Assembly: GCA_903822175.1 (NCBI GenBank)
Contig: CAIJOB010000022.1
Coordinates: 62,001-126,000, forward strand
Reading direction: 5' to 3'
DNA: 64,000 bases
Origin: an uncultured Alphaproteobacteria bacterium
GTDB lineage: Bacteria > Pseudomonadota > Alphaproteobacteria > Caulobacterales > Caulobacteraceae
Every line of letters starts with the position of its first letter. The stretch's first letter is position 1. Positions 2,177 through 12,089 of the stretch are shown one piece after another. A program made the translations under genes and the position numbers. The notes beneath the pieces were generated by a model. It saw nothing but the letters and a program-made list of their open reading frames with translations. It ran no database searches and was not told where the DNA came from.

Positions 2177-2560
2177 TCAGATCGACGAGATCGAGAGCTT
2201 GCGCCGCTCGGTCGACGCAATGAGTTCGGCCCAGATGGCGGCGTCGCGGGCGGTATCGCCGGCCTGCTCGGCGGCGATGTGGGCGGCGATCAGCCGGCCG
2301 CGCAGCCGGGCGTTCTCGGCGCGCAGCACCGAGAGCCGCAGGTCCGCCTCGCCGGCCCCGTCGTTCAGCAGGGCGGCGAGCGCGCGGTTCTCGCGGACCA
2401 GATGTTCGGCCGCCGCGTCCCAGACCTCGGCGGCGACCCCCAGCAGCATGGCCGTCAGCGTCAGCTCGTTCTGCCGCTCGCCGTCGGGCACGCCGGGGCC
2501 GGCGTTGCGCATGGCGAGCAGCGCCAGCTCGGAAAGCACGGTGGGAACCTGCGGCGTCAT
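2177..2560 (-). CDS. Small helical partner protein of the phosphotransferase (LvaB/DUF6285-like)
   Basis: The ORF track begins at 2611, but an ATG at 2560 overlaps the stop of the upstream phosphotransferase gene (ATGA), giving a coupled 127-residue product starting MTPQVPTVLSELALLAMRN. It is almost entirely helical, with a central 'NELTLTAMLLGVAAEVWD' and a heptad-like 'LRAENARLRGRL' segment. A short helical protein directly after an ACAD10-like kinase matches the lvaA-lvaB arrangement of Pseudomonas putida levulinate catabolism, where LvaB is a small partner needed by the LvaA kinase (established there). Homology to LvaB/DUF6285 is my inference from position, size and composition. Confidence 0.6.
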   Translation of the reverse strand: MTPQVPTVLSELALLAMRNAGPGVPDGERQNELTLTAMLLGVAAEVWDAAAEHLVRENRALAALLNDGAGEADLRLSVLRAENARLRGRLIAAHIAAEQAGDTARDAAIWAELIASTERRKLSISSI

Positions 2561-3582
2561 AGCTTGCCCATCACCCGCAGGATCGCCCGGTCCTGGGCGT
2601 TCAGCAACCACCAGGCCGCATAGGCCAGGACCGGCTCACGGTTGCCGCCGCCGATATAGGCGTGCGCCGAGCCGACCCAGATGCCCTGGCCCTTCACGCA
2701 GTTGAACAGCATCCACCAGTGGAGCGCGGCGGGGTCGACGACAAGGCCGCTGGCGCGCCGCCAGATGGCGATGGCTTCGTCCTGCGGGACCAGTCCCCCG
2801 GCTAGGCCCCGGCCGAACTCCCAGACCGGGTTGAGGCCCCAGGCCAGGTCCTCCAACGGGTCGCCCAGGTGGGCCATCTCCCAGTCCAGCACCCCGTGGA
2901 TGTCGCCGGTCTCGTCGTAGAGGAAGTTGCCGGTGCGGTAGTCGCCGTGCACGACGGAAAGCTTCTGGGCCGGCGGCGGCGGGTTGGCGCGAAGCCAGCG
3001 GATCGCGGCGCGCGCGATTGGCTGCGGCTCGGCCTCCTGGGCGTCGAAGATCGCTTCCCAGTGGTCGAGCTCGCGGCGCCAGCACGCATCCAACGCTGGC
3101 GCCGGCATCACCGAGGTCAGGTCCAGCGCGTGTGGATCGGCCTTGGCGATCTCGCCCAGGATCGTCCATTTGCGCTCCGCCACCCGCGGCAGGACCGCGT
3201 CATAGCCGCCGGCGAACAAGAGCTGCGGCGCCGCCTGGAAGCCCGCCAGTTCCTCGGCGATGAAGAAGGGATGGTCGAGGGCGTCGTCCTTCTCTTCCAG
3301 CCACAGCATCCGGGGCACCGGCACCGCCGAGCCATGGAAGGCGCCATAGGCCGCGAACTCCACGCGCCGCTCGGTGTCGATCAGGCTGGCCGGAGGATCG
3401 CGCCGCAGGATCAGCCGGCGCGTCTGGGTTTCGCCGCCCTGGCGATAGCTCAGCCGGAACCGATAGGTCTCCCGCGACGCGCCGCCGGAAATGCGCTCCA
3501 GCCCGCTGACCGCCACATCGGAGGCGTCCGCCAGCTTGCCCGCGATATAGGCGGCGACCCGCGGTTCGAGGGGATGGCTCAA
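2557..3582 (-). CDS. Phosphotransferase (APH/ACAD10/LvaA-like acyl-CoA kinase)
   Basis: A 341-residue member of the aminoglycoside-phosphotransferase/choline-kinase fold. The Brenner-type catalytic loop is 'HGDYRTGNF' (residues 212-220) and the metal-binding 'DWEMAHLGDP' follows at about 233. Glycine-loop residues 'ISGGASRETYRF' lie near 31-42. Members next to P450s and acyl-CoA genes are the ACAD10/LvaA type, which phosphorylate hydroxyacyl-CoAs rather than antibiotics. The called start is TTG (MSHPLEP), 8 nt after the P450 stop, with only a weak purine-rich stretch upstream. It is coupled to the next small gene by ATGA. An antibiotic-resistance role is unlikely in this context. Confidence 0.85.
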   Translation of the reverse strand: MSHPLEPRVAAYIAGKLADASDVAVSGLERISGGASRETYRFRLSYRQGGETQTRRLILRRDPPASLIDTERRVEFAAYGAFHGSAVPVPRMLWLEEKDDALDHPFFIAEELAGFQAAPQLLFAGGYDAVLPRVAERKWTILGEIAKADPHALDLTSVMPAPALDACWRRELDHWEAIFDAQEAEPQPIARAAIRWLRANPPPPAQKLSVVHGDYRTGNFLYDETGDIHGVLDWEMAHLGDPLEDLAWGLNPVWEFGRGLAGGLVPQDEAIAIWRRASGLVVDPAALHWWMLFNCVKGQGIWVGSAHAYIGGGNREPVLAYAAWWLLNAQDRAILRVMGKL

Positions 3583-3590
3583 ACTTCGTC

Positions 3591-4877
3591 TCAGCTCATC
3601 TTGAAGCGGATGGGCAGGCGTTTGGGGCCATTGACGAAGACGCTCTCGCTCATGGCCGGCTCACCATCCAGCGCGAGGTCGGAAAGTCTGGGCAGCAGTT
3701 CCTCCCAGAGGATGCGCATTTCCATCTTGGCCAGGTGCTGGCCCAGGCACAGGTGCGCGCCGTAGCCGAAGGCCAGGTGCTTGTTGGGCTTGCGGTCGGC
3801 GCGGAATTCCTGCGGCGCTTCGAACACCTCTTCGTCGCGGTTGCCCGAGGCGTAGCAGAGCATCAGCCAGTCGCCCTTCTTCATGTGGCGTCCGGCGAAC
3901 TCGGTGTCGGCGGTGACCGTGCGCATGAAGGTCTTCACCGGCGTGGTCCAGCGGATGGACTCGTCCACCAGGCCCGGGATCAGCGACGGGTCGGCCTTGA
4001 CCTTGGCGAGCTGGGCGGGGTTTTCGGCCAACGCCCACATGGCGCCGGCGGTGGAGGACGAGGTGGTGTCGTGCCCGGCGGTGGCGACGATGATGTAGTA
4101 GCTCATCGCCTCCAGGTCGCTGATCGGCTGGCCGTCGATCTGCGAGTTGGCGATCAGGCTCGCCAGGTCCTCGGTAGGGTTCGCCCGCTTGCTCTCCGAA
4201 AGCGCGCGGAAGTAATTCGAGAAATCGATGATCACCCCGAAGTCCATCTTGCGCTCTTCCGGCGGAGTGTCGCCGTCACGGGCGAGCTCCGGATCGGCGG
4301 CGCCGAACAGCTCCTGGGTGAGCTTCAGCATCCGGGGTTCATCGTCCTCGGGCACGCCCATGATGCTCATGATCACGTGCAGCGGGAAGTGCAGAGCGAC
4401 CTCTTTCACGAAGTCGCAGCGGCCTCCTGAGGCGGCCATCTTGGCCACCGAGGCCTTGGCGATCACCCGAATCTGATCCTCCAGCCGCTTGAGGTTCTGC
4501 GGCATGAACCAGGCCTGGGTCAGCAGACGGTATTTCAGGTGATCGGGCGCATCCATGTGGATCAGCGTGCGCAGCAGGTGGGGGCTGCCGCCCATCATCT
4601 CGCGGACCTGCTTGTCGGCCTCCTGGCCGATCATGGTGGGAGAGCGGTCGCCGTTGTGGAACAGGTCGTTCTGGCGGCTGATCTCCAGGATGTCCTCGTG
4701 CCGGGTGACCACCCAGAAGGGGTCGACGCCGTCCACATCGGCGATGCCCAGCGGCTCGTTCTTGCGCAGCCAGGCGTAGGCCTTGTGGATGCGGCCATCG
4801 GCATAGGCGCCCGGCGCCACCAGCTGCTCCGCCACGTCCTTGGGGATGCGATGGTCGACCTCGGTCATCACGCTCAT
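3591..4877 (-). CDS. Cytochrome P450
   Basis: The start is set at 4877 (MSVMTEVDHR), preceded by GTGGAGGAT about 7 nt upstream; the track's longer start lacks this. The 428-residue soluble bacterial P450 shows the I-helix oxygen-activation motif 'AGHDTTSS' (residues 268-275), the ExxR pair 'ESIR' (306-309) and the haem loop 'FGYGAHLCLGQ' with the proximal cysteine at 377. The sequence has the feel of terpene/alicyclic hydroxylases (CYP108/CYP111-like) rather than CYP153, but the subfamily is uncertain. No ferredoxin or ferredoxin reductase gene is nearby, so electrons must come from elsewhere. It is the first gene of a four-gene minus-strand operon. Confidence 0.95.
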   Translation of the reverse strand: MSVMTEVDHRIPKDVAEQLVAPGAYADGRIHKAYAWLRKNEPLGIADVDGVDPFWVVTRHEDILEISRQNDLFHNGDRSPTMIGQEADKQVREMMGGSPHLLRTLIHMDAPDHLKYRLLTQAWFMPQNLKRLEDQIRVIAKASVAKMAASGGRCDFVKEVALHFPLHVIMSIMGVPEDDEPRMLKLTQELFGAADPELARDGDTPPEERKMDFGVIIDFSNYFRALSESKRANPTEDLASLIANSQIDGQPISDLEAMSYYIIVATAGHDTTSSSTAGAMWALAENPAQLAKVKADPSLIPGLVDESIRWTTPVKTFMRTVTADTEFAGRHMKKGDWLMLCYASGNRDEEVFEAPQEFRADRKPNKHLAFGYGAHLCLGQHLAKMEMRILWEELLPRLSDLALDGEPAMSESVFVNGPKRLPIRFKMS

Positions 4878-4974: not shown

Positions 4975-6054
4975 ATGCTGACCAAGGGCGATGACTTCCC
5001 GATCCACCAGACGCCTGAGCCGATCGCCTATTCGGGCTCCGACCGGAATTTCTACGACCGCTATTTCTTCAACGGCTATTCGCCGGACGGGTCGGAGTTC
5101 GTGGCGGTGGCCTTCGGGGTCTATCCGGCGCTGAACGTCGCCGACGCCCACGTCTCGATCATCCGCGACGGGATACAGCGCAACCTGCACGCCTCGCGGA
5201 TTTTGGGCATGGAGCGGATGGACCTGACCGTGGGGCCGATCCGCATCGAGGTGATCGAGCCGTTGCAGAAGCTGCGCGTGACGCTGGCGGCGGCTGAGGG
5301 CCTGGCCTGTGACCTCACCTTCGAGGGCCGCGCCTTCCCGATCGAAGAGCCGCGGTTCACCCGCCGCAACGGGCCGCGGATGTTCATGGACTACACGCGG
5401 CTGACCCAGAACGTACGGGTCTCCGGCTGGACCGAGGTCGACGGCGAGCGGCGAGCTTTGGGCGCCGGCTGGACCGGCACGCGCGACCGCTCCTGGGGTA
5501 TCCGGCCGGTGGGCGCGCCGGACACTCAGATGACGCCGGGCGCCGGCCTGGCGGGGTTTTTCTGGCAGTGGACGCCGCTCAATTTCGCCGACAGGAGCGT
5601 GTTCTTCCACATCAACGCCGACACCGAAGGCAAGCCCTGGAACACCCGCGCGGTGATCCTGCCGGACGGCGCGAGCGCCGAGGGCGGCTGGCACGCGGAC
5701 GCGCCGCGCATGGAGGAGGTGACCCTGCTGCCCGGCACGCGCCACGCGCGCGGCGGGACGCTGAAGATCCCGCTGGAGCAGGGCGAGGCGAGTGTCCGCA
5801 TAACGCCGAAAAGCGTCTTCCTGATGCGCGGCATCGGCTACGGCGGCGACTGGCGCCATGGCGGGTTGAAGGGCGAGCTGGCCGTCGCCCGCGAGGATTT
5901 CGACCTGGCCAAGACCGACATGGGCGCGCCGGAGAACCTGCACATCCAGGCGATCTCGACCGCCGTGCTGGAGGTCCCCGGCGAAGCGCCGCAGGAGGGG
6001 ATCGGCGTCTTCGAACAGCTGATCGCCGGACCGTATCGGCCCTACGGATTGTAG
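4975..6054 (+). CDS. DUF7065/DUF7064 (lipocalin/CrtC-like) protein
   Basis: The ATG at 4975 is preferred over the upstream GTG at 4960 because GAGGGA sits 7 nt upstream of it. The 359-residue protein has no signal peptide. Its N-terminal half (DRYFFNGYSPDGSEFVAVAFG) and C-terminal half with 'GTRDRSWGIRPVG' match the paired DUF7065/DUF7064 domains, related by fold to hydroxyneurosporene synthase CrtC and tocopherol cyclase-like lipocalins. These proteins are common in actinobacterial and alphaproteobacterial lipid, terpene or steroid catabolic loci but lack an assigned reaction. It is transcribed divergently from the P450 gene, so a role in binding or hydrating a hydrophobic substrate is plausible (inference). 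Confidence 0.75.
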   Translation: MLTKGDDFPIHQTPEPIAYSGSDRNFYDRYFFNGYSPDGSEFVAVAFGVYPALNVADAHVSIIRDGIQRNLHASRILGMERMDLTVGPIRIEVIEPLQKLRVTLAAAEGLACDLTFEGRAFPIEEPRFTRRNGPRMFMDYTRLTQNVRVSGWTEVDGERRALGAGWTGTRDRSWGIRPVGAPDTQMTPGAGLAGFFWQWTPLNFADRSVFFHINADTEGKPWNTRAVILPDGASAEGGWHADAPRMEEVTLLPGTRHARGGTLKIPLEQGEASVRITPKSVFLMRGIGYGGDWRHGGLKGELAVAREDFDLAKTDMGAPENLHIQAISTAVLEVPGEAPQEGIGVFEQLIAGPYRPYGL

Positions 6055-6058
6055 CCGC

Positions 6059-7018
6059 CTAGTGGTGGCTGAAGACGTGGACCAGGCGCGCGGCGGCCGG
6101 GAGCATCAGTGAGCCCAGCAGGCACGGGAAGATGAAGATGATCAGCGGGACGGTCAGCTTGGCCGATAGCGCCAGCGCCTTCTCCTCGGCCCGCAGCATG
6201 CGCTTGGAGCGCATGTCCTGCGAGAACACCGTCAGCGTTTCGCCCAGGCTGGTGCCCATCTCTTCGGCCTGGCGCAGCATGGTGGCGAGTTGGCGGGCGT
6301 CGTCGATACCCAGGCGGTCGGCGAAGGCCGACCAGGCCTCCTTGCGCGACTTGCCGGCCCGCAGTTCCAGCACCAGGAAGCGCAGGTGCACGGTCAGGTT
6401 CGGATAGCGCCTGGCCAGTTCCTCGGTCACCCTGCTCACCGCGGCGTCGAGGCTGAGGCCGGCTTCGACGGAGGCCACCAGCAGGTCCAGCAGGTCGGGG
6501 AAGCCGTCGGCGTATTCCCGCTCGCGTTTGGAGCGGCGCATGTTCAGGATCCGGTCCGGCCCCAGGATGGCGATCAGCGCCAACACGCCGGCGATGGCGA
6601 CGCCGCCGAAGCCGCCCTTGCCGCCGACCACCAGCGGCAAGACCAGGATGACGCCGAGCGTCGCCGCCGCCAGGCTGGCGGCGCGGACGCCCAGATAGAT
6701 CACCGGGGCCTCGCGATTGTAGAAGCCCGCCTGCATCAGCCGCGAGCGGAGCACCGACAGCTTGGCCGGATCGCGCACCGCGCTCTGCTGGCCGAGCTTG
6801 CGGATCTGGCCCATGAACTGGCCGCCGATCCCGGCGTTGGGGTCGCGCGGACGGCTCGTCCCGCCCATTTGGCCTGCGCCCGCGGGCGCGAGACGGCCCC
6901 GGCGGATGGCCCGCAGGCGCAGCTCGCCGGCCGCCACAAAGGCCGCGCCGCCGACGCCCGCCAGCATGAACAGCGCGCCGGCGATGGTGATGATGTTCTG
7001 GATCTGCGCGGGGTTCAT
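6059..7018 (-). CDS. tadC: Flp pilus assembly inner-membrane protein TadC (CpaH)
   Basis: The start is set at 7018 (MNPAQIQNIIT), 5 nt after the tadB stop; the track's 7102 start would run back into tadB. The 319-residue polytopic protein has an N-terminal membrane segment, a basic linker and a T2SSF (GspF) domain with 'LLVASVEAGLSLDAAVSRV' and 'LRQAEEMGTSLGETL', ending in two hydrophobic helices. TadC forms the inner-membrane platform with TadB that couples the TadA ATPase to pilus assembly. It is the last gene of the cpa/tad operon and converges on the DUF7065 gene with only 4 nt between stops. Confidence 0.9.
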   Translation of the reverse strand: MNPAQIQNIITIAGALFMLAGVGGAAFVAAGELRLRAIRRGRLAPAGAGQMGGTSRPRDPNAGIGGQFMGQIRKLGQQSAVRDPAKLSVLRSRLMQAGFYNREAPVIYLGVRAASLAAATLGVILVLPLVVGGKGGFGGVAIAGVLALIAILGPDRILNMRRSKREREYADGFPDLLDLLVASVEAGLSLDAAVSRVTEELARRYPNLTVHLRFLVLELRAGKSRKEAWSAFADRLGIDDARQLATMLRQAEEMGTSLGETLTVFSQDMRSKRMLRAEEKALALSAKLTVPLIIFIFPCLLGSLMLPAAARLVHVFSHH

Positions 7019-7023
7019 GGCGA

Positions 7024-7979
7024 CTACAGCCGAAGATCGATCATGCGGCGCATGACCATGTTGCCGAGGAACATCCAGATGCCGAGGCCCATGAGGCCCC
7101 ACTTCACCATCGGCTCATGGATGACATCGCCATAGAAGTGCGGCGAGGAGATCACGATGAAGCCGGTGGAGACGAAGGGCGCCGAGGTCAGGATCAGCGC
7201 CGAGGCGCGGCCTTCGGAAGAGGCGGCCTGGATCTTCAGGCGCATCTTGTGGCGCTCGCGCACCGTGGCGGCGTTGAGCTTCAAGAGGCCGGTCAGGTTG
7301 CCACCGGTGCCGGCCTGCAGGCGCACGGTAGCGGCGAACAGGTCGACGTCGGGATGCTGGCAACGCTCGGCCATGCGCTCGATGGCCTGCTCCATGGTGG
7401 CGCCATAGGCGATCTCGTCGGCGGCCATGCCGAACTCCGAGCCGATCGGATCGACCATTTCGCGGCCCACCAGGTTGATGGCGGTCGGCACGGGGTGGCC
7501 GGCTTCGAGGCTGCGGACGATGATCTCCAGCGCCTGCGGCAGCTGGAAGCCCAGCGCCTTGGCGCGCTTCTTCACCAGGTGCTTCAGGTAGAAGATCGGT
7601 CCGCCGACTCCGATTCCCAGCAGGCCCACGGGAAACAGCAGCGGGTTCTTGGAAAGCACGGCCGCGGCCATGCCGCCCACCAGGCCCGCCAGGATCGCAT
7701 AGACGGTCCACTTCTTCGGCTCGTACTTCAGGCCCGAGGCGACGATCAGGTTGGAGAGCCAGCGCAGCCGCCGGCCGCGCTCCCCCTTGGCGTCGAGCCC
7801 ACGCTGCTTGCGCAGCTCCATGACCAGGGCGGAGACGCCATCGACCCGCTCGGCCACCTTCAGGCGCTTGTTCACCTTGCGCTTCTGGGTGGCCACCGAG
7901 ACCAGGCCGATCAGCGACTGGCCGGCGGTGAACACCGCGGCGAAGACCAGGATCAGGAAGATGACGTTGGGACTGACGG

Positions 7980-7983
<4 letters not shown>
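7024..7983 (-). CDS. tadB: Flp pilus assembly inner-membrane protein TadB (CpaG)
   Basis: A 319-residue protein with an N-terminal TM segment (VIFLILVFAAVFTAG), a basic cytoplasmic stretch, a central membrane pair and a T2SSF domain with 'IIVRSLEAGHPVPTAINLV' and 'RLQAGTGGNLTGLL'. TadB and TadC are the two GspF-like platform proteins of Tad pili. The start overlaps the cpaF stop as ATGA, so translation is coupled. The product should sit in the inner membrane and contact the CpaF hexamer. Confidence 0.92.
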
Positions 7984-9418
<1,435 letters not shown>

Positions 9419-9419
<1 letters not shown>

Positions 9420-10606
9420 CAGGCGGCCTTCGTGGCGACGGAATGGGCGGCCAGGCGGTCGACCAGCTGCTGGACGTCCTTGACGATCTTCGACTTGGGC
9501 CGGTGCGTGGCGATCGGGCCGCCCAGGTTGACGGACGCCGCGGCGGCCTCCCAGTCGGAGCTGACGCCGCCCTCGGCCTTGCGCTGCAGGGCGCGTTCCG
9601 CCTCGGCCATCGAGGGCGCGGGGCCGAACATGCGGCTGGCCAGGCGGTTGAGCACGATCTTCGGCTTCTGGCCCGACCCCAGGTCGCGCTCGATCTCGTC
9701 GGAAAGCGAGCGGGCGGCGAGCAGGGCCGGCACGGTCAGCTCGGAAATCACCAGCATCTCGTCGCAGCCGCCCAGCACCTCCAGGCTCCAGGACCGGCGG
9801 TGGCGCGGCATGTCGAGGATCACCCAGTCGTAGCTCTCGCAGGCGATTTCCAGCATGCGCAGGATCGCCTCACGCGGCGCTGCCTCGAAGGCTTGCGGAT
9901 CGCGCGGCGCGGCCAGCAGGTCGAGCTGCTTGGTCACCGGCGTGACGAAGGCCTGCAGCATCGCCGCGTCCAGCTTATCGGCGGCGGCGGCGAGGTCGGC
10001 CACGCGCAGCGTCGGGCTCGCGCCCAGATAGGGGCCGGCCGAGCCGTCGGCCAGGCAAAGGTCGATCAGGCAGACGCTCTTTTCCTTGGCCTGGCGGCCG
10101 CAGAGCTGGTTGGCGATCTCGATGGCGAGCGTCGTCGCGCCCGAGCCGCCGACCGCGCCGATCACGGCCCAACAGCGCGCGACCGCGGCGGCCTGCGGCA
10201 CGGCGGGCGCCGGGGCGGCGGCGGCAGTCTTGGCGGTCTGGGCGGCCAGCAGACCCTCGATCGCGGCGACCACGGCCTCGGGCGTATAGGGCGCCTCCAG
10301 CACGTCGGAGTGGTCGAGCCGGAACAGATTGCGCACCACCGCGGTCGGCAGGTGCGAGCCGACCAGCAGCACGGGCGGCGGCGGGCTGGGTGAGATGGTC
10401 AGGGCCTGGATGCCGGCCGCCAGCGCCGGGTCGGCCCAGGCGTCGGCGTCGATTATGATCAGGTCCGCCTCGGCCGCGGTCACCCCGATCAGCCTGGCCA
10501 GCGTCGCCTGCTCCAGCTGGGCCCCTGCAAGCGGGCCGTCGGCAAGCCCGGCGAGCGCCGGACCTATAGCCAGGACGCGCCGACCGCTGAGGGACTGGGT
10601 ACTCAT
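9419..10606 (-). CDS. cpaE: Pilus localisation protein CpaE (TadZ), MinD/ParA-like
   Basis: A 395-residue protein with an N-terminal atypical receiver-like region (residues ~1-120, 'ADLIIIDADAW', 'PPVLLVGSHLP'), an Ala/Pro linker and a MinD-like ATPase domain from ~145. The P-loop reads 'AVGGSGATTLAIEIA' (151-165): both lysines of the deviant Walker A motif are replaced, so ATP hydrolysis may be weak or absent, as noted for some TadZ proteins. 'YDWVILDMPRHRRSW' is the switch/Walker B-like region. CpaE/TadZ recruits the Tad machinery to a pole or focal site. It lies between the secretin and the ATPase, where cpaD would normally also occur. Confidence 0.92.
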
Positions 10607-10614
10607 AGGGGAAC

Positions 10615-12069
10615 TTACTTTCCGGAGGCGGGAACGGCGGCGGCGGTGATTTCGCCGCGCAGCGGCAGGGCGGGCGGAGCGGCGGCGGAGACCGCGGTCG
10701 GGGTTGGGGCGGGGGCCGGGGCGGCCGCGAGCGGCTGGGCCGGCGCGATGAGACCGCGCATGTCGCGGCTCATCGGCGGGTCCTTGGTCACGACGCCGTT
10801 GAACATGAAGGCGCCCGCGTTGGGCTCCTTGCCGGCGATGTCAGCGGTCTTGGCGGCCTTCTCGAAGTCGCGGGCCGTGACGATGTGCGGCGTGACGATG
10901 ATGATCAGCTCGGTCTCGTTGCGCGCCCAGCGAGCCGAACGGAACAGAGAGCCCAGGATCGGGATGTCGCCCAGGCCCGGGAACTGGCGCAGGTCGTTGT
11001 TGTAGGTGTGCATGAACATGCCGCCCAGCGCCAAGGAGTCGCCGTCCTTGATCTCGACGGTAGTGTCGGCCTTGCGGGTGATCAGGCCCGGCACCTGGAC
11101 GCCGGAGATCTTGATCGAGTTGGTCTGGTCGAGCTGGCTGACCTCGGGGGCGACGGCCAGGCGGATCAGGCCGTTGTCCTGCACGGTCGGCGTGAAGTCG
11201 AGCTTCACCCCGTACTGGCGGAACTCCAGCGTGATCTGGTTCAGGCCCTGCGGCACCGGATAGGGGAACTCGCCGCCGGCCAGGAAGCTGGCCTTGCCGC
11301 CGGAGACCGCCACGAGGGTCGGCTTGGCCAGCGTGCGTACGATGCCCTTTTCCTCAAGCGCCTGCAGGCTGAGGTTCACGCCGTTGACGCCGGCGTGGGT
11401 GGCGAAGCCCAGGACGCCGTTGGCGGGCGTGTTGCCGATCAGGCCGCTGCCGAAGTTGAACGAGGTGTTGCCGCTAGTGATGGCGCCGGAGAAGCCTGCG
11501 TCCTGCAGGGACGAGCGGGTCGCCTCCATGACGCGGACTTCCAGCACGACTTCCTGCGAGGCGCTGACCAGCAGGGCCGAGGTCGCGCCGTCGGGGGCGA
11601 ACTTGTCGGCCATGGCCTTGGCGCGGGTGGCGACACTGTTCGAGGAGACCGTGCCGGTGAGCAGCAGGCCTTCGCCGAGCGTCTGCACCTTAACGCCCTC
11701 GCCGGGCAGCGCCGTGTCGATGTCGCTCTGCAGAGCGTGGGCGTCATAGCCGACGCGCACGTCGATCATCTGCAGGAGCCGCCCGCCCGGTCCATAGACC
11801 AGGAGGTTGGTCGAGCCGACGTCGAGGCCGCGGACATAGAAGCTGCGGTCGGTGGTGGCGACCACCTCGGCGATGTCCGGCTGGGAGACGACGATCTTGC
11901 TGGCGGGTTCGTCCAGGCGAAACGAGAGCGCCTTGTCCTTCGGCACCGAGATGGTGCGGACGGGTGCGGCCTCGCTGGCGAAGGCGTCGGCGAAGGCCGG
12001 CGTCGCGGCGGCGGTGGCCGCCAGCAGGCTGACGGTGGCGCAGAGCGCGGTGGCCAGGTGGCGTGACAT
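10615..12069 (-). CDS. cpaC: Tad/Flp pilus outer-membrane secretin CpaC (RcpA)
   Basis: Two in-frame ATGs lie at 12075 and 12069. The second is preferred because GGAG is 9 nt upstream of it but only 3 nt from the first. The ~484-residue precursor has a signal peptide (ALCATVSLLAATAAATPAFA), an N0/pilus domain 'KDKALSFRLDEPASKIVVSQPDIAEV', a BON-like segment and a C-terminal secretin domain ending with 'GLGDIPILGSLFRS' and 'NETELIIIVTPHIV'. It should form the outer-membrane gate of the pilus. The last ~60 residues are Pro/Ala-rich. CpaD, the usual partner lipoprotein, is not encoded next to it. Confidence 0.95.
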   Translation of the reverse strand: MSRHLATALCATVSLLAATAAATPAFADAFASEAAPVRTISVPKDKALSFRLDEPASKIVVSQPDIAEVVATTDRSFYVRGLDVGSTNLLVYGPGGRLLQMIDVRVGYDAHALQSDIDTALPGEGVKVQTLGEGLLLTGTVSSNSVATRAKAMADKFAPDGATSALLVSASQEVVLEVRVMEATRSSLQDAGFSGAITSGNTSFNFGSGLIGNTPANGVLGFATHAGVNGVNLSLQALEEKGIVRTLAKPTLVAVSGGKASFLAGGEFPYPVPQGLNQITLEFRQYGVKLDFTPTVQDNGLIRLAVAPEVSQLDQTNSIKISGVQVPGLITRKADTTVEIKDGDSLALGGMFMHTYNNDLRQFPGLGDIPILGSLFRSARWARNETELIIIVTPHIVTARDFEKAAKTADIAGKEPNAGAFMFNGVVTKDPPMSRDMRGLIAPAQPLAAAPAPAPTPTAVSAAAPPALPLRGEITAAAVPASGK

Positions 12070-12089
12070 GGTCATGGGCTCCAGGGTTC

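Follow-up and report, generated by a model that had tools for sequence, protein, structure and literature searches.

A probable ATP-driven, P450-fed alcohol dehydration module in a Caulobacteraceae genome

Introduction

What chemistry could join a cytochrome P450, a small-molecule kinase and a small helical protein that are encoded next to one another? The question is raised by a locus near the left end of the 64,000-nucleotide stretch of Caulobacteraceae DNA analyzed here (the window), for which an initial annotation proposed a hydroxylate-then-phosphorylate module. The small protein LvaB is the partner of the kinase LvaA in the levulinate catabolism of Pseudomonas putida (PMC6692424). In Sterolibacterium denitrificans, the kinase 25-HSK phosphorylates a tertiary steroid alcohol, which is produced by a molybdenum enzyme with water, and 25-phosphosteroid lyase (25-PSL) then eliminates the phosphate to leave an alkene; 25-HSK is monomeric, with no small partner reported, and the neighbourhood of its gene yielded no lyase candidate (PMC8449060). 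The kinase Rv3168 of Mycobacterium tuberculosis shares one operon, regulated by Rv3167c, with Rv3169 (PMC5340868). Among the papers searched, none dealt with DUF6285, DUF7064 or the “Rv3169 family”.

Results

The genes run on the minus strand in the order P450, phosphotransferase, 127-residue helical protein, EmrB-type exporter. The cytochrome P450 (positions 3591-4877, −, 428 residues; Pfam p450, E 1.6e-25) is CYP108-like and has intact heme-Cys and AGHDTT motifs. Its stop codon is separated by 8 bp from the TTG start codon of an APH-superfamily small-molecule kinase (2557-3582, −, 341 residues; Pfam APH, 114 bits), and the TGA of the kinase overlaps, as ATGA, with the ATG of a four-helix protein (2177-2560, −; AGCTATGACG), a remote DUF6285 (LvaB-type) relative. 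Next comes an EmrB/DHA2 family MFS exporter (602-2158, −; 371 bits, cut-off 230), which just 4 of the 40 related loci contain and which is thus accessory. The coordinates, the HGDYRTGNF motif of the kinase and the overlap were all given correctly in the initial annotation, but its gene set stopped one gene short. It left out 4975-6054 (+), which is divergent from the P450, encodes a protein of the Rv3169 family and is the functional key of the locus.

To the left of the exporter lie an ABM-domain monooxygenase-like ORF (261-605, +; by Pfam) and a NIPSNAP-like ORF (+; family assigned by reading) that starts 54 bases before the window and ends at 264. Beyond the left end of the window, the same genome encodes an ArsR-like regulator (by reading), a ChsH2/DUF35-type protein and a thiolase, the latter two 0.9-2.5 kb past the end. 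This pair recurs in 26-27 of the 40 relatives (DUF35 and thiolase by Pfam), which points to a later C-C cleavage. On the other side, the module adjoins tad pilus genes (TadC, TadB, CpaF, CpaE and CpaC-like, by reading; 6059-12075), partly retained in related loci L036 and L037.

The product of 4975-6054 scores 393 bits with the NCBIfam model NF053593 (curated cut-off 150), and phmmer aligns it to 25-PSL (PDB ids 9fzn and 9g2i) with an E-value of 8.9e-45 and 35% identity. Its AF2 model (pLDDT 91) has 25-PSL as the top Foldseek match (TM 0.83 over 362 columns, covering the full length, E 5e-29). Of the 25 alignment-covered residues that are invariant in 26 family members, 25-PSL retains 22. Sequence and model alike make it very likely that the protein is a phosphate-eliminating lyase of the 25-PSL family, although at only 35% identity its substrate, and even its reaction, could differ. 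One of the residues invariant in the 26 sequences is Asp171 (GTRDRSWG). It aligns with a 25-PSL residue that, in the aligned stretch, changes from Asp in the native entry to Asn in 9g4c, the 25-PSL entry holding phosphate and desmost-1,4-diene-3-one. The replacement in a product-bound entry suggests, but does not prove, that Asp171 is a candidate catalytic residue.

All motifs of the kinase, LILRRDP (LR+xP), VHGDYRTGN (HGDxxxxN) and LDWE, are intact. With a profile built from 20 module kinases, 3dxp, Rv3168, 9o56, ACAD11 and 9fsg score 81-102 bits and antibiotic kinases at most 31, and the window kinase scores at most 27 bits with the NCBIfam models of antibiotic phosphotransferases, whose cut-offs are 205-650. 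By sequence, the kinase belongs with the LvaA/ACAD10-11/Rv3168 kind, as originally suggested, and the grouping with aminoglycoside phosphotransferases that would have spoken against this assignment is not seen. The 379-residue protein of entry 9fsg is not its nearest relative; from its size and the neighbouring entry numbers, we presume that it may be 25-HSK (43.3 kDa). None of the papers searched names entries 9fsg or 9o56. The kinase is likely to act on the same substrate as the lyase. In locus L131, the module kinase (8039-9100, +), whose neighbours include a small protein and a gene of the Rv3169 family, carries a degenerate HGDxxxxN motif (VKGNNGVGE) and is possibly a pseudokinase.

The small protein was initially described as LvaB/DUF6285-like, of which a remote relationship stands and membership does not. 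None of 24 small-protein members matches Pfam PF19802 (DUF6285), even at an E-value of 10. An hhalign comparison of the family with 28 DUF6285 proteins gives a probability of 93% and a score of 45.6, against maxima of 19.1 in 100 column shuffles and 24.4 in 100 block shuffles, and the small-protein profile matches two DUF6285 proteins directly (E ~1e-4, in a small ORF set). At the level of profiles, the protein is a remote relative of DUF6285 and not a member of it. We take LvaB to be a DUF6285 protein, and the label LvaB-type refers here to the comparison with DUF6285. Foldseek gave no match to the model of the small protein (best E 2.2), and a PDB search with the family profile returned coiled-coil noise only. 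Across the order, almost every orthologous pair keeps the ATGA overlap with the kinase, including pairs whose kinases are ~41-50% identical; such recurrence is not due to chance.

Canonical DUF6285 proteins either directly follow their own kinase or are fused to it; a fused chain of kinase and window-type small protein was not found. Natural kinase-DUF6285 fusions occur in L137, L139, L140, L152 and L144, the last in a 760-residue frame that appears to add an SDR domain. Of 22 DUF6285 loci, 10 have an acyl-CoA-dehydrogenase-like gene nearby (by reading, not Pfam), and in two a DUF7064/7065 protein, a distant relative of Rv3169, lies beside DUF6285. Both arrangements occur in the genome from which the window comes: the module described here and, on another contig, a second pair, of a kinase and a DUF6285 protein, that adjoins an acyl-CoA-dehydrogenase-like gene. 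L195 and L196 each hold a kinase-small pair and a kinase-DUF6285 pair in one locus with an Rv3169 gene.

Relatives of the locus are found in Phenylobacterium and other Caulobacteraceae, where the order P450-kinase-small protein is kept. In a class-level sample, Rv3169 exceeds the cut-off in 20 of 240 genomes. The 19 Rv3169 loci outside the window have the kinase and the small protein in the same operon (11 loci), an EcKL-family (ecdysteroid-kinase-like) kinase instead (three) or neither (five). The small-protein profile matches eight of the 190 genomes in an even class sample, the window's own included, and all eight matches are near Rv3169; in the other seven genomes the distance is ~1.1 kb, i.e. 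one kinase gene. The probability that all eight would be Rv3169 genomes by chance is ~5e-10. The complete set of three genes also occurs in several families of the order. The kinase, the small protein and the Rv3169-family lyase are one module in Alphaproteobacteria. In sphingomonads and Hyphomonadaceae, an EcKL kinase adjoins Rv3169 in 36 of 36 loci (e.g. L206, 5916-6995, +). Together with the kinase-small and Rv3168 pairings, this shows that a single lyase family is paired with kinases of different types.

The P450 has a different distribution. Among the 40 Caulobacteraceae loci with enough flanking sequence for the count, it is present in 37 and absent from L174, L176 and L196, which are otherwise complete. 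None of 28 loci of other groups has it, and 19 of these carry the kinase-small-Rv3169 module. The adjacency of P450 and kinase pair that was to be surveyed is thus a Caulobacteraceae trait: the P450 was added in this lineage to a core that is more widespread, and it lies outside the conserved part. Its closest solved relative is P450terp (CYP108A1), with 48.9% identity over 415 residues, followed by P450tol (45.8%) and 3tkt (45.7%). By the CYP naming convention, members of one family share more than 40% identity, and 46-49% full-length identity to these three proteins makes the P450 CYP108-like. The gene context differs from theirs, and redox-partner genes as described for P450terp were not recognised here. 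P450terp hydroxylates a tertiary alcohol, alpha-terpineol, at C7.

Discussion

With a gene related to that of 25-PSL adjoining a P450 and a kinase, the cluster looks like an ATP-driven phosphorylate-then-eliminate system. We consider it probable, by a fair margin over an even chance, that the locus is an alcohol dehydration module, presumably P450-fed, in which hydroxylation is followed by phosphorylation and by elimination of phosphate by a dedicated lyase. What the analysis establishes is the gene content, the conserved synteny and the homologies. The CYP108-type P450 would hydroxylate a hydrophobic, probably isoprenoid, substrate, if its place at the start of the pathway is correct. The kinase and its LvaB-like partner would phosphorylate a secondary or tertiary hydroxyl, as family-level evidence suggests. 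The Rv3169-family protein would then eliminate inorganic phosphate to yield an alkene, for which homology and fold match to 25-PSL and the conserved Asp candidate argue. The alkene would be oxidised further, with the thiolase/ChsH2-like pair outside the window as a likely later step. Our confidence in the parts of this scheme is a judgement and not a computed value; it is greatest for the lyase, lower for the kinase and lowest for the P450, for which the odds that it makes the hydroxyl that gets phosphorylated are slightly short of even. A steroid substrate was weighed and is now regarded as doubtful, since a search of the genome, which had no strong positive control, did not find KshA; this argues weakly against sterol mineralisation.

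The closest parallel is 25-HSK/25-PSL (PMC8449060; PDB ids 9fzn, 9g2i, 9g4c), where a kinase also acts ahead of a lyase, and this lyase has its family, its fold and the conserved Asp candidate in common with the one here; unlike in that system, the genes in the window are neighbours and are adjoined by a P450 and an LvaB-like protein. The Rv3168-Rv3169 operon likewise combines a kinase with an Rv3169-family protein, but its kinase is only distantly related (51 bits), and neither a P450 nor a small partner is described there in PMC5340868. LvaA-LvaB(-LvaC) and ACAD10/11 share the kind of kinase, a remotely related small partner and the use of phosphorylation for hydroxyl removal, whereas their substrates are acyl-CoAs and elimination is carried out by an acyl-CoA dehydrogenase, none of which was recognised in the cluster. 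Tentatively, the locus could do aerobically, starting from an oxygenase, what 25-HSK and 25-PSL do anaerobically: a P450 would make the tertiary alcohol, which would be phosphorylated by a two-subunit kinase (a catalytic and an LvaB-like chain) and turned into the alkene by a dedicated lyase. The conserved pairing of kinase and Rv3169 suggests the same chemistry for the mycobacterial operon.

The order of steps is where another reading comes nearest. The substrate may already be a tertiary alcohol, like alpha-terpineol, and the P450 may oxidise another position, or the alkene, beside a core dehydration module. That P450terp is the closest solved P450 (48.9%) fits this idea, as does the fact that L174, L176 and L196, and loci beyond the Phenylobacterium group, have the module but no P450: absence from 3 of 40 and 28 of 28 loci means that the P450 may act at another point of the pathway. 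Conversely, 8 bp separate the P450 from the kinase on the same strand, and within the genus one is rarely found without the other; this arrangement suggests a common substrate, if not an order. We regard this alternative as rather unlikely, and the hydroxylate-then-phosphorylate order first proposed as sensible, with the reservation that the P450 is outside the conserved core. An Lva-type route is considerably less probable. There, the kinase pair would phosphorylate a hydroxyacyl-CoA, with the hydroxyl supplied by the P450 and the phosphate removed by acyl-CoA-dehydrogenase chemistry. The kinase and the small protein are related to LvaA and LvaB-type proteins, and thiolase and ChsH2-like genes are close by. 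However, the cluster has no recognisable gene for a CoA ligase, an SDR or an acyl-CoA dehydrogenase. The pair linked to an acyl-CoA-dehydrogenase-like gene, a link seen in many DUF6285 loci, lies elsewhere in this genome, and the partner that is conserved in the module is a dedicated lyase-family gene of the 25-PSL type. Neither the CoA activation of the initial annotation nor its Lva chemistry finds support at this locus.

Two further readings turn on the nature of individual proteins. The Rv3169-family protein might be a hydratase or a cyclase and the phosphoester an end product or a tag for transport, given that the fold of 25-PSL also includes hydratases and Diels-Alderases and that the lyase model has weaker Foldseek matches (TM ~0.5) to kievitone hydratase and lipocalin-like Diels-Alderases. 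Since 25-PSL is a much better match (TM 0.83; E 9e-45 by sequence) and kinases of three kinds are paired with the Rv3169 family, we think this improbable. The APH fold and the adjoining EmrB exporter could also speak for resistance or detoxification, with the kinase inactivating a drug-like compound that the pump exports. This reading is highly improbable and was rejected: the kinase scores favour lipid-type over antibiotic kinases, the NCBIfam antibiotic models stay far below their cut-offs and the exporter is rare in related loci.

As an ATP-driven dehydration module, the locus would offer aerobic bacteria a way to remove unreactive tertiary alcohols at a cost of one ATP. It extends the role of LvaB-type small partners from acyl-CoA substrates to a second kinase-lyase chemistry, and makes Rv3168-Rv3169 of M. 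tuberculosis directly testable as a kinase and a phospholyase. It also provides a testable reaction for a widespread, unnamed gene family (Rv3169 and its DUF7064/7065 relatives). In L136 (4256-5323) and L132 (5182-6321), DUF7064/DUF7065 proteins, distant relatives of Rv3169 and perhaps phospholyases too, are encoded directly upstream of kinase-DUF6285 pairs.
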